Assembly: GCA_902789245.1 (NCBI GenBank)
Contig: CADAND010000002.1
Coordinates: 140,087 to 204,086, forward strand
DNA from: an uncultured Bacteroidia bacterium
Lineage (GTDB): Bacteria > Bacteroidota > Bacteroidia > Bacteroidales > UBA932
Direction of reading: 5' to 3'
DNA: 64,000 nt
The translations under genes and the position numbers were made by a program. Numbering within the stretch: the stretch's first letter is position 1; every line of letters begins with the position of its first letter. A model generated the notes under the pieces. The model did no database searches, was not told the origin of the DNA, and worked only from the letters and a program-made list of their open reading frames with translations. Positions 19,176 to 30,679 of this stretch are shown here, piece by piece.

Positions 19176-19964
19176 TTATTGGCAGGATGTGATGTGGAAG
19201 CAGTGTTCTTTCCTTTCGTACTTGACGAGGATGCGGCCGGCATTCTTTTCGTCGCGCAGCACCTCGCCGAGCACCTTGGTGAGCTCGAAGGGCTGCATGA
19301 ATTCGTCCGTCTCCTCGTCGCGGTCGTACTTCGTGTAGGTGATGTCGAAGGTGGTTCCGTAGCAGTGCGCAGAGTTGTCCGAAGCATTCGGATTTCCGCT
19401 CTTGCGAAGGCGCGCGACGTCCTCTTCGGTACGCAGGATGGACGAGCAGACTAGCTTATAGACAGGCAGTTGCTTGCGCGTCAGCGAGTCATTGAAGGCT
19501 TTCGCGATGCGATTCAGTTCGGCGGCGGCGCCGGCCGTCAGATACGGCACGGAATAGCGCAGTTCGTCGATGGACAGGTAGTCGGATTCCTCGACCTTGA
19601 CCAGCAGCTTCGTATCGATGGCGTCACGCTTCTCGGGAACGCTTTTCAGGCCTATCTCCCGCGCTTTCTCCAGGTGCAGGTCGTTGATGTCGTCGAAGAT
19701 GGTGGCGTAAGCCATTCGCCGGACGTCGTAGATGACTTCCCGGGCGGCGGACACCCCCGTCCCGTCGACGTCGTCGTCCTCCAAGACGGGTTCCGGATCT
19801 TCAGGCTGCTCCTGGACGGGTTCGGGGATTTCCTCCTGCACGACCGTCTCTTCCGCCACGGGCTGCTCCTTCTTGCTGCAGGCTCCGCCCACCAGGATTC
19901 CGAGCAGGAATCCCAGCAGGAACGGAGTCAGCAGGACAATCAGTGTTTTATGCTTCTTAGTCAT
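19176..19964 (-). CDS. DUF5715-like, M15-peptidase-like exported protein
   Basis: A 262-residue protein has an N-terminal hydrophobic segment (8-29) that serves as signal or anchor; Cys29 (GGAC) could also be a lipobox. An acidic Pro/Glu linker (33-66) follows. The C-terminal half shows S198-x-H200-x2-G-x3-D207 ([12 protein letters not shown]) and a late His pair (H254, H257), matching the metal ligands of VanY/M15-type D-Ala-D-Ala carboxypeptidases and of DUF5715. It would act in the periplasm. Its start overlaps the gcvPB stop by 8 bp (ATGACTAA), a surprising coupling to the glycine cleavage operon. Confidence 0.7.
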
Positions 19965-21477
19965 ATTTAAGGATGGGCTGCCGGGCGGCGGTCGTCTCGT
20001 CGGGACGGCCGATCGGGGTGCAGTGCGGGGCGCCGTGGAGCATCTCCGGGTCGGCCTTGGCCTCTTCGGCGATCTTGCGCATCACGGCGATGAATGCATC
20101 CAGGGTCTCCAGCGACTCCGTCTCCGTCGGCTCAATCATGATGGCCTGGTGGAAGAGGAGCGGGAAGTAGATCGTCGGGGCGTGGAAGCCGTAATCCAGC
20201 AGGCGTTTGGCGACGTCGAGCGTCGTTACGCCATTGTCCTCCAGCAGGCCGTCGAAGACGAATTCGTGCTTGCAGACCGTCGGGATGGGCAGCTTGTAGC
20301 AGTCCTTGAGCGATTCCTTGATGTAGTTCGCGCCCAGCGTGGCCAGTTTCCCGGCCATTTTGACGTGTTCGCGGCCCAGCATGAGGATGTAGGCGTAGGC
20401 GCGCAGGATGATGCCGAAATTGCCGTGGAAGCCGCTCACGCGGGGAATGTGCAGGAACGGGAGCACCTTGTCGGACACGCCGACCGGGCCTGCGCCCGGA
20501 CCGCCTCCGCCATGCGGCGTGGAGAAGGTCTTATGCAGGTTCAGGTGCATGATATCGAAGCCCATGTCGCCCGGACGGACCATGCCGAGGAGCGGGTTCA
20601 TGTTGGCGCCGTCGTAGTAGAGCAGGCCGCCGCAGTCGTGGACGAGCTTCGCGATCTCCTTGATGTCACGCTCGAAGAGGCCGAGCGTGTTGGGGTTCGT
20701 CATCATGATGCCGGCGATGTCAGGGCCGAGGAGCGGCTTGAGCGCCTCGACGTCCACAAGGCCGTTCTCCCGGGACTTTACGACCACGATTTCGAGGCCG
20801 CAGACGGCCGCAGATGCCGGGTTGGTGCCGTGGGCGCTGTCCGGAACGATGACCTTGGTGCGGGCGAGGTCGCCGCGGCTCATGTGGTATTCGCGCATGA
20901 GCATCAGGCCGGTGAGTTCGCCGTGGGCGCCGGCGCAGGGCAGGAAGGTGAAGTGTTTCATGCCCGTGATGGCCGCCAGGGCCTTGTCCATGCCGACGTA
21001 GATCTCAAGGGCGCCCCGGGTCGTGCTCTCCGGCTGCAGCGGATGCAGGCCGGTGAACGCGGGCATGTTCGCAATCTCCTCGTTGATCTTGGGATTGTAT
21101 TTCATCGTGCAGGATCCGAGCGGATAGAAACCCGTATCCACGCCGAAATTCATCTGGGACAGGTTCGTATAATGACGCACCACATCCACCTCACTGACTT
21201 CCGGGAGATCCAGCGACGCTTCACGCCAGATTCCGGCCTTGCCACGAGGCTGCTCGCCCGGCGCGACGTCACAAGAATCGGTTTTTTTTGCAGGATCGCA
21301 AAAAAATCCGATTTCTTCTGACCCCACCACTGGCGTGGTCCCCCCTCTTCCGAGCCGAGGGCGGCACGGTCCCGCCTGGGCGACAGCCTCGCATGCAAGG
21401 CCGAAGGAATCAGGCAGCGAATACCCGATGCGTCCGGGTTTGGAGAGTTCGAAGATGAGTTTGTCGTAGTATTTCAT
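19957..21477 (-). CDS. gcvPB: Glycine dehydrogenase (decarboxylating) subunit 2, with in-frame palindromic insert
   Basis: This is the PLP-bearing half of the split P-protein of the glycine cleavage system, which decarboxylates glycine and passes the aminomethyl group to GcvH. The PLP lysine motif [21 protein letters not shown] gives Lys316, and the [20 protein letters not shown] block (110-129) is intact. Between GYSLP (18-22) and [13 protein letters not shown] (from 91) there are 68 residues, where homologs that I remember have about 20-25. The extra stretch (roughly residues 23-85) is Cys-, Gly- and Arg-rich and is encoded by DNA with two hairpins, including a 16-bp arm pair at 21276-21313. 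The rest of the protein is a normal length. Confidence 0.92.
21273..21317 (-). repeat. Palindromic element inside gcvPB coding sequence
   Basis: The arms AATCGGTTTTTTTTGC (21276-21291) and GCAAAAAAATCCGATT (21298-21313) pair with one mismatch around the loop AGGATC and extend outward by AAG/CTT with one bulge. A second hairpin, ACCAC-TGGC-GTGGT, follows at 21326-21339. Both lie in the extra segment of gcvPB and keep the frame open. Confidence 0.75.
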
Positions 21478-27538: not shown

Positions 27539-28996
27539 ATGGTTTCGTTCTTCATCGGCGTGATAGCGCTCATACTGGGCTATCTGCTCTACGGCAAGTT
27601 CGTCGATCGGGTGTTCGGCCCGGATCCGGCGCGCCCGACGCCCGCCATCACCAAGGCGGACGGCATCGATTTCATCGCCCTTCCTTCCTGGAAGGTTTTC
27701 ATGATCCAGTTCTTGAACATCGCAGGCACTGGACCGATTTTCGGTGCCATCATGGGCGCGAAATTCGGCCCGGCGGCCTACCTCTGGATCGTCTTCGGAT
27801 GCATCTTCGGCGGCGCCGTCCACGACTACTTCAGCGGCATGCTGTCGCTGCGCCACGGCGGCGCGGGCCTTCCCGAACTGATCGGAGACTACCTGGGAAA
27901 GACCGCCAAGACCGTGATGCTCTGCTTCTCGATCCTGCTGCTGGTGCTCGTGGGCGCCGTGTTCGTGTACAGCCCGGCCATCATCCTGAAGGACCTGGCA
28001 GGCGACGGCACCGACAGTGCATTCATGATCTGGGCGGGCGTGATCTTCGTCTATTATATCATCGCCACGATGCTCCCGATCGACAAGATCATCGGCAAGA
28101 TCTACCCCATCTTCGCCGTAGCGCTGATCTTCATGGCCGTGGCGCTGATGATCGGCCTGTTCGTCAAGCATCCGCAGCTCCCCGAGCTCTGGGACGGCCT
28201 GCAGAACCGCACCCAGACCTGGGGCGGCAAGGGCCAGGCCATCTGGCCGTACATGTTCGTGACCATCGCCTGCGGTGCCATCAGCGGCTTCCATGCGACG
28301 CAGAGCCCGCTGATGGCGCGCTGCCTGACGAATGAGAAGCTCGGTCGTCCGATCTTCTACGGCTCCATGATCACGGAAGGCCTCGTGGCCATGATCTGGG
28401 CCGCCGTCTCTTCGTATTTCTTCTTCGCCGGCGGCGCCGCCGAAGTGGGCGGCACCTTCGCAGATGCCGCTCCAACCGTGGTGACCAAGGTCTCCCGCAA
28501 CTGGCTGGGTATTGCCGGCAGCATCCTCGCCCTGTGCGGCGTGGTGGCCGCCCCAATCACCAGCGGCGACACGGCCCTGCGCAGCGCGCGGCTCATCATT
28601 GCGGATTTCCTGAAATTCGACCAGAGACCGGTCCACAAGCGCCTTGTGATCGGCGTTCCCCTCTTCGCCGTGGCGGCGCTGATGCTCTGGTTCAACATCG
28701 CCAACGAGGACGGATTCAACGTCATCTGGCGCTATTTCGGCTGGGCCAACCAGACGCTCGCCGTCTTCACCCTCTGGGCCGTGACCGTATTCCTCGTGCG
28801 TGAGCGCAAGGGCGCATTTTACCTGATGACCCTGCTGCCGGCCTGCCTGATGACGGCCGTCAGCGTGACCTATATCAGCATCGCCCAGATCGGATTCAAC
28901 CTCCCGCTGGGCTGGCACCGCTGGATCGGCGCCGTGACGATCGCCCTCAGCCTGGTGCTCTTCTACCGCTGGAAACTCACCAAAGCCCGCAACTAA
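27539..28996 (+). CDS. cstA: Carbon starvation protein A family transporter (CstA, pyruvate/peptide uptake)
   Basis: A 485-residue protein with about twelve hydrophobic helices. The family signatures are clear: GTGPIFGAIMGAKFGPAAYLWIVFGCIFGGAVHDYFSGMLS near the start, PIDKIIGKIYPIFA, and SGFHATQSPLMARC in the middle. CstA-type carriers import peptides or pyruvate. At this size it is the short form lacking long C-terminal extensions. The ATG at 27539 was chosen because the conserved start MVSFFIGVIALILGYLLYGKFVDRVFG begins there; the frame stays open upstream only by chance. EttA follows after 6 bp. Confidence 0.9.
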   Translation: MVSFFIGVIALILGYLLYGKFVDRVFGPDPARPTPAITKADGIDFIALPSWKVFMIQFLNIAGTGPIFGAIMGAKFGPAAYLWIVFGCIFGGAVHDYFSGMLSLRHGGAGLPELIGDYLGKTAKTVMLCFSILLLVLVGAVFVYSPAIILKDLAGDGTDSAFMIWAGVIFVYYIIATMLPIDKIIGKIYPIFAVALIFMAVALMIGLFVKHPQLPELWDGLQNRTQTWGGKGQAIWPYMFVTIACGAISGFHATQSPLMARCLTNEKLGRPIFYGSMITEGLVAMIWAAVSSYFFFAGGAAEVGGTFADAAPTVVTKVSRNWLGIAGSILALCGVVAAPITSGDTALRSARLIIADFLKFDQRPVHKRLVIGVPLFAVAALMLWFNIANEDGFNVIWRYFGWANQTLAVFTLWAVTVFLVRERKGAFYLMTLLPACLMTAVSVTYISIAQIGFNLPLGWHRWIGAVTIALSLVLFYRWKLTKARN

Positions 28997-29002
28997 CGAC
29001 TT

Positions 29003-30679
<1,677 letters not shown>

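Follow-up and report, generated by a model that had tools for sequence, protein, structure and literature searches.

The gcvPB gene of an uncultured Bacteroidales bacterium carries an in-frame palindromic insert that is very probably one copy of a genus-wide family of non-autonomous mobile palindromes of about 130-200 bp, probably translated where they have landed. Copies are dispersed through the genomes and lie within the open frames of conserved genes, in both orientations, and the same sites are filled in some relatives and empty in others.

The window (the whole stretch of DNA analysed, 64 kb) is contained within a 2.28-Mb metagenome-assembled genome (G000, here called the own genome). 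The gcvPB product scores 667.5 bits against NCBIfam NF003346 (cut-off 441), and its closest named relatives are encoded by Bacteroidales metagenome-assembled genomes, many of them from ruminant gut samples. The gene's open frame runs through the element without interruption. A preliminary description, made from the sequence alone, had pointed to a hairpin with 16-nt arms and T8/A7 runs, which we find with arms at 21276-21291 and 21298-21313 (94% complementary), and to a second small hairpin, which we locate at 21322-21344. It overlooked the larger palindrome that encloses both, as well as the related copies dispersed in the genome. Its wording for the encoded peptide, low-complexity and Cys/Gly/Arg-rich, may fit only loosely. 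The element is in fact one quasi-palindrome of about 190 bp, with outer arms enclosing the T8/A7 hairpin and the small hairpin; the bounds first given, 21222-21411, were nearly correct, and 21225-21415 fit better. The features are as follows.

19957 to 21477, minus strand: gcvPB, glycine dehydrogenase subunit 2, 506 amino acids (open reading frame list; NCBIfam NF003346)
21225 to 21415: whole palindromic element, in frame in gcvPB (inverted repeats; fold z -11.8; empty site in the relative L029)
21225 to 21267: left arm of the closing stem, with bulges (inverted repeats, arm alignment)
21369 to 21415: right arm of the closing stem, with bulges (inverted repeats, arm alignment)
21276 to 21313: T8/A7-armed hairpin, the H1 of this subtype, located 5' of CCCC on the plus strand
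21322 to 21344, plus strand: core motif CCCC-ACC...GGT-CCCCC, used for finding the family
21326 to 21339: hairpin H2, ACCAC/GTGGT, with the loop GCCA on the G-rich strand
21343 to 21347: CCCTC, the linker strand of the pseudoknot, between H2 and H3
21352 to 21367: hairpin H3, with one A-A mismatch in the window copy

Folded as DNA, the 197 nt around the palindrome reach -74.6 kcal/mol, compared with -38.1 +/- 3.1 for shuffled sequences (z -11.8; 0 of 200 shuffles as low), and the same region folded as RNA gives z -9.4 (0 of 200). A chance origin of the palindrome was rejected on the DNA folding score together with the dispersed copies. Assembly error as the source of the insert is unlikely, because many genomes that were assembled separately contain copies with the same core, and the site is common to relatives.

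The segment of GcvPB between GYSLP and LPEVSEVD was said to be about 68 residues long and much shorter in homologs. We count 68 residues, and in an alignment of the window protein with 29 relatives (A4, hand-picked from 80 GcvPB loci) the segment is short in 26 of the 30, long in the window, L028 and L030, and intermediate in L031. The solved GcvPB of Thermus (1wyt_B) has the conserved arginine at residue 36, where the window protein has it at residue 85, so that the Thermus protein is 49 residues shorter ahead of it. The clearest empty site is that of L029, a syntenic close relative with 87-99% identity per 150-bp window across the glycine-cleavage genes outside the insert site, and with a GcvPB 50 codons shorter than that of the window. 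Presence varies among relatives: the site is filled in five of the genomes seen (window, L028, L010, L127 and L030) and empty in L029, L009, L011 and others. An AlphaFold2 model of GcvPB (mean pLDDT 65.8, residues 13-133 below 50) is too poor around the insert to show the loop and is excluded from the evidence. The empty site of L009 (gcvPB of genome G008) contains a perfect 14-bp palindrome, CTGCCGGCCGGCAG, which could be the footprint of an excised or lost copy, although this is suggestive only.

The occurrence of the element at the same loop in several gcvPB orthologs might point to a functional extension specific to GcvPB that does not move. We consider this extremely unlikely. The dispersed copies contradict it, with related elements present in dozens of unrelated genes; the close relative L029 lacks the insert; and the element of L030 is reversed relative to that of the window, so its peptide differs. 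The long segment is thus not universal among relatives and copies exist elsewhere in the own genome, the two points on which the idea of an inserted element had been open to refutation.

A BLAST search with the gcvPB insert recovered a copy in trmB (E 5.7e-5). The core pattern was found at 5 places in the own genome (the reversed pattern at none) and at 62 places in 15 of the 41 genomes of the genus; the backward control gave 23 places, so the pattern alone is not specific. Of the 64 pattern hits carried forward, 8 were left out of later counts: L108, L109, L110, L112, L116, L120 and L148, which resemble ordinary gene sequence, and one L136 hit cut by a contig end. The remaining 56 copies, all found by the core pattern, form alignment A2, from which a covariance model (R1) was built. 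With the best 88 candidates per genome scored and E up to 0.001 accepted (the E-values are rough), the own genome yielded 28 matches and 30 of the 41 genus genomes yielded 308; the other 11 had no match among the 88 scored in each. The background is low: in the 64-kb window the gcvPB copy is the sole high scorer, followed by two others at E 2.6 and 5.6, and 91.7 kb of RAYT loci gave no match up to E 1.

Of 393 genomes drawn from the order, a set that included only two other members of the genus, the own genome alone contains a strict form of the core pattern. Absence from the other 392 is weak evidence for confinement to the genus, since the strict pattern is insensitive: it finds 1 of the 28 own-genome copies and misses the one in gcvPB. 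Viral, phage and plasmid records yielded no match to a strict, likewise insensitive pattern or to one 115-bp copy.

What the copies have in common is a folded core, made up of hairpins and a covarying pseudoknot. On the C-rich strand the order is the H1 hairpin, CCCC, the H2 hairpin (ACC...GGT), a CCCCCC linker and the H3 hairpin; where other copies have a short H1 hairpin, the window copy has the T8/A7 hairpin (alignment A2). The pseudoknot is formed by pairing of the H3 loop with the linker between H2 and H3, in the window copy by GAGGG (21357-21361) with CCCTC (21343-21347). Among the 56 copies the paired strands take the forms GAGGG/CCCTC (40), GCGGG/CCCGC (5), ACGGG/CCCGT (3) and ATGGG/CCCAT (1), with a 4-bp form in 2; it was left unscored in 5, in some of which the script chose another hairpin. 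RNAalifold proposed the pseudoknot pairs unprompted. Across H2, H3 and the pseudoknot, 89% of cells are paired, and this fraction, the cells with double changes (30, compared with 6.7 in shuffled alignments), the covariation score (0.118 versus 0.045) and the number of pairs showing double changes (8 versus 3.7) were each reached in 0 of 500 shuffles. The measure of further pair types was not above shuffles (364 of 500). Versions of the pairing slid along the alignment score lower on the first four measures, the exception being further pair types.

Copies that lie in genes leave the reading frame open. An open frame of at least 150 codons runs through 47 of the 56 aligned copies (46 without the doubtful L151), and the others (ten, counting L151) lie between longer open reading frames, judged from their positions alone. 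All 30 open reading frames submitted to Pfam, which hold 32 copies and were chosen because an open frame crosses the element, belong to known families. Recognised hosts include TrmB, RecG, UvrA, a PcrA/UvrD-type helicase, IspH (LytB), MetH, chorismate synthase, PurD, RNase R, FtsK and a dihydrolipoamide-type acyltransferase. TrmB carries two inserts in opposite orientations, and MetH also carries two. The suggested search of the own genome for dispersed copies, especially in-frame ones, was borne out by 27 model matches besides that in gcvPB (among the best 88 candidates scored): 15 of the 20 examined, or 16 of 21 with gcvPB, are in frame in recognised genes, among them recG, polA, dnaX, trmB (twice), ribF and a dsbD-type gene. 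Two genes of TldD/PmbA type, 1.7 kb apart, each contain an in-frame copy. Two of the 21 lack an open frame (L355 and L357), and L349, L352 and L353 fall in neither class. The genome G024 is an exception, with 20 of its 24 R1 matches (best 88 candidates scored) lying outside any open frame of at least 250 codons.

Judged by Pfam borders, many inserts fall between domains: that of RibF lies between residues 183 and 249, and that of PolA between the 5'-3' exonuclease and the remainder of the protein. As open frames run through the copies, the inserts are probably translated as extra protein loops. In RNase R, one and the same loop apparently contains an element in both G000 (L344) and G009 (L132), two species of the genus, and in two species (L143 in G025 and L150 in G041) a copy lies in an open reading frame that fuses a YhhN domain to an aldehyde dehydrogenase. 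Three loops of TrmB vary greatly across the genus (L192-L221), and several of the long ones do not show the motif of the core and may represent decayed elements or elements of another kind. Copies in G039 (L359 at 368-652, and other loci) are close to the ends of contigs, next to tandem repeats about 51 bp long that contain GTGAGTAAA...TTTACTCAC units.

A conserved, pseudoknotted fold that is also very stable as RNA could indicate a device that acts at the RNA level, either removed from the mRNA (by self-splicing or bypassing) or regulatory within it. The orientation of the core relative to the gene argues against a function in mRNA, being nearly equal among 44 in-gene copies (23 with and 21 against the gene; 32 from the Pfam-searched open reading frames, 11 from the own genome, and the window copy). 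Moreover, 47 of the 56 copies keep an open frame, which would be needless if the insert were removed, and Rfam yielded no covariance-model match at the gathering score in 8 loci; in the window stretch only a microRNA-precursor model scored, at 27.5 bits compared with a gathering score of 58. We therefore regard an RNA-level device as improbable.

Filled and empty sites were also found in other genes. The RecG loop is short or empty in 27 of 30 loci, where LWxK stands only a few residues ahead of PPH or a similar triplet; G000, G023 and G035 have different inserts at exactly this position; the cores in G000 and G023 are in opposite orientations. The G035 insert (L190) has no clear core motif and a GC-rich CCCCCCTGGGGGGG centre, and may be another type of element or a decayed copy. 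At least three genomes (G000, G008 and G023) have an element in a loop of an FAD protein, where both orientations occur; G043 seems to have one there as well, and the loop is empty in G044, G004 and G011, among others. In an aminotransferase, G011 and G004 carry an insert in a loop that is empty in G000 and G008. The aminotransferase copy of G004 (L124, contig C83) has a second hairpin-like insert nested in its core linker, still in frame. Insertion is thus recent in places, and sites are reused. Either independent insertion into permissive loops or flipping between inverted arms would explain these observations. By eye, no convincing target-site duplications were seen.

The closing arms behave differently from the core. 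When each left arm is locally aligned with the right arm of its copy in reverse complement, the mean score is 34.9, as against 13.6 with the arms of other copies, and a copy's own pairing beats every cross-pairing in 49 of the 64 pattern hits; the unfiltered set was used here because the choice of the eight dropped rows overlaps with the arm test. Three copies in G024 have nearly identical cores (two of them identical by eye) and unrelated outer arms of about 15 bp. Arms specific to each copy are not universal, since a subfamily of the same genome (L375-L379, L381-L390 and L392, with L377 cut by a contig end) has arms that are much alike (CGGCGGGAATCCTCGTGGTCTCGGC). Bulges recur at similar places: of 94 entries, 37 have a break in the left arm, 14-17 pairs out from the inner end, and 17 have one in the right arm, at 26-27 pairs; these entries count a few copies twice, and the positions depend on local alignments.

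Relative to the fold of the window element, the gcvPB element of L010 shows 11 double changes, all paired, and one-sided changes of which 3 keep and 1 breaks a pair. In that of L127 all 8 double changes are paired, and of its one-sided changes 3 preserve a pair and 6 break one. L028 has 7 double changes (5 paired or wobble, 2 broken), and its one-sided changes keep the pair in 3 cases and break it in 4. Pairing within the element is thus mostly preserved as its sequence drifts, through selection or template switching. The outer arms may be simple copies of the pre-existing host site; this is partly attractive for the FAD-protein loop, but in RecG and the aminotransferase each of the two arms exceeds in length anything present at the empty site.

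Several features bear on the strand that may move. On the G-rich strand, a C(GNA)G loop closed by at least 2 pairs occurs in 42 of 56 H1 and 42 of 56 H2 segments (about 3 each in shuffles), and the bare GNA-loop motif in 44 H1 and 46 H2 segments of the 56. GNA and GNNA loops on G-C stems are described as very stable DNA mini-hairpins (PMC4686876). The arms contain 1408 standard pairs; of their mismatches, 39 are A.C, which corresponds to a wobble on the G-rich strand, 14 are G.T and 52 are of other kinds. Contrary to this are 12 G.U cells on the other strand, at the outermost pair of H3, and the H1 hairpin of the window subtype, which has no GNA loop. In all of these counts related copies are not independent. 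Given the GNA loops, the A.C mismatches and the nearly equal orientation in genes, we lean towards a folded G-rich DNA strand as the mobile form.

We propose that the element would move in single-stranded, folded form, probably as the G-rich DNA strand, and that a putative enzyme would recognise it by shape. Selection would remove copies that insert out of frame or into rigid regions of a protein, so that the survivors would lie in loops and inter-domain linkers, in frame and translated. The arms may arise, or be rebuilt, upon insertion or later; selection for the fold, or template-switch copying from one arm to the other, would then maintain their complementarity. Tentatively, and with somewhat less than even confidence, we suggest that this is a new kind of element, recognised by the shape of a folded DNA strand (three hairpins, a pseudoknot, stable GNA-type loops and recurrent bulges) and not by its end sequence, that acquires fresh arms at each insertion, keeps them complementary afterwards and has come to occupy loops and linkers of essential proteins throughout the genus.

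The mover may instead be more conventional, the family being REP/BIME-like or MITE-like and mobilised by a RAYT or another IS200-type Y1 transposase. We identified 96 Y1_Tnp (RAYT-type) matches in 31 of the 41 genus genomes, many of them in open reading frames of about 290-370 amino acids, and on contig C8 of G041 one such match (29719-29982) lies about 1.5 kb from a copy of the element (28132-28170). This pair is outside the 30 RAYT loci scanned, and since about 1.5 pairs this close (2 kb or less) would arise by chance across the genomes, it neither supports nor excludes a link. The R1 model found 0 matches in those 30 loci (91.7 kb, of the 96 listed), and the element is several times the length of a REP and has a pseudoknotted multi-hairpin core. 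A family moved in this way is possible but doubtful.

REPs are hairpins of 20-40 bp with GTAG/CGTC tags, and bacterial MITEs share terminal inverted repeats. The present family resembles REP/BIME systems with their RAYTs in being palindromic and dispersed and, as PMC3733652 describes for some REPs, in occurring at times within replication and repair genes; it differs in a length of 130-200 bp, in having several hairpins and in the lack of any copy in the 30 searched RAYT loci. With MITEs such as Correia/NEMIS, ERIC and RUP it shares a short, non-autonomous nature and, for several of them, fusion in frame (as reported in PMC2229807 and PMC10969869). The conservation pattern is different, however: here the terminal arms are mostly variable and the centre is conserved, except in the G024 subfamily with common arms. 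The coding palindromes of Nematomorpha mitochondria are likewise long inverted repeats in translated genes, but both of their arms are described as encoding conserved parts of the protein (PMC6649704), whereas the present elements would form an extra loop, absent from relatives, and share a core.

In-frame protein-coding palindromes are best known from Rickettsia, and we know of no sequence common to the palindromic elements of that genus (RPEs) and the family described here. RPEs are described as palindromes of 100-150 bp in frame in Rickettsia genes, and a guanylate kinase that carries one is reported to be active (PMC2229807). Orthologs may carry different RPE types near the same locus, and hosts include tRNA m7G methyltransferase, DNA polymerase III, a helicase and a putative aminomethyltransferase (PMC3767692); the elements are summarised in a review (PMC10969869). 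As in RPEs, which are also reported in Wolbachia, copies here are in frame in unrelated genes, reuse the loci of orthologs and occur between genes as well (compare PMC2229807, PMC3767692 and PMC10969869). That the family works like an RPE is well supported: dispersal, in-frame insertion and empty sites are all found, and in the broad sense the family behaves as protein-coding palindromic elements do. The resemblance drawn in the preliminary description thus holds for the way of working and fails for identity, because the host phylum and the architecture differ. The present family has a conserved pseudoknotted multi-hairpin core, its arms pair within a copy and mostly differ between copies, and its orientations are nearly equal. 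Membership of the RPE family by transfer could account for the shared behaviour, the 100-150-bp in-frame palindromes and some of the same kinds of host gene (the latter as listed in PMC3767692). Nevertheless, the host is a Bacteroidales genome, not one of the Rickettsiales, and the core and pseudoknot common to the copies are in no RPE known to us, which makes true RPE membership highly improbable. A literature search for in-frame palindromes in Bacteroidetes or Bacteroidales found no paper, which does not prove that the family is unpublished, and the family was not recognised among the matches listed in a search for Bacteroidetes palindromic repeats or RAYTs.

The family would be a second large one of its kind, in a widespread group of the gut and rumen, and its movement and its effects on proteins become testable, given the many species, empty sites, reused loops and compensated changes. 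It would also explain the unusual long loops in many predicted proteins of these metagenome-assembled genomes, including those encoded by polA, dnaX, recG and uvrA.
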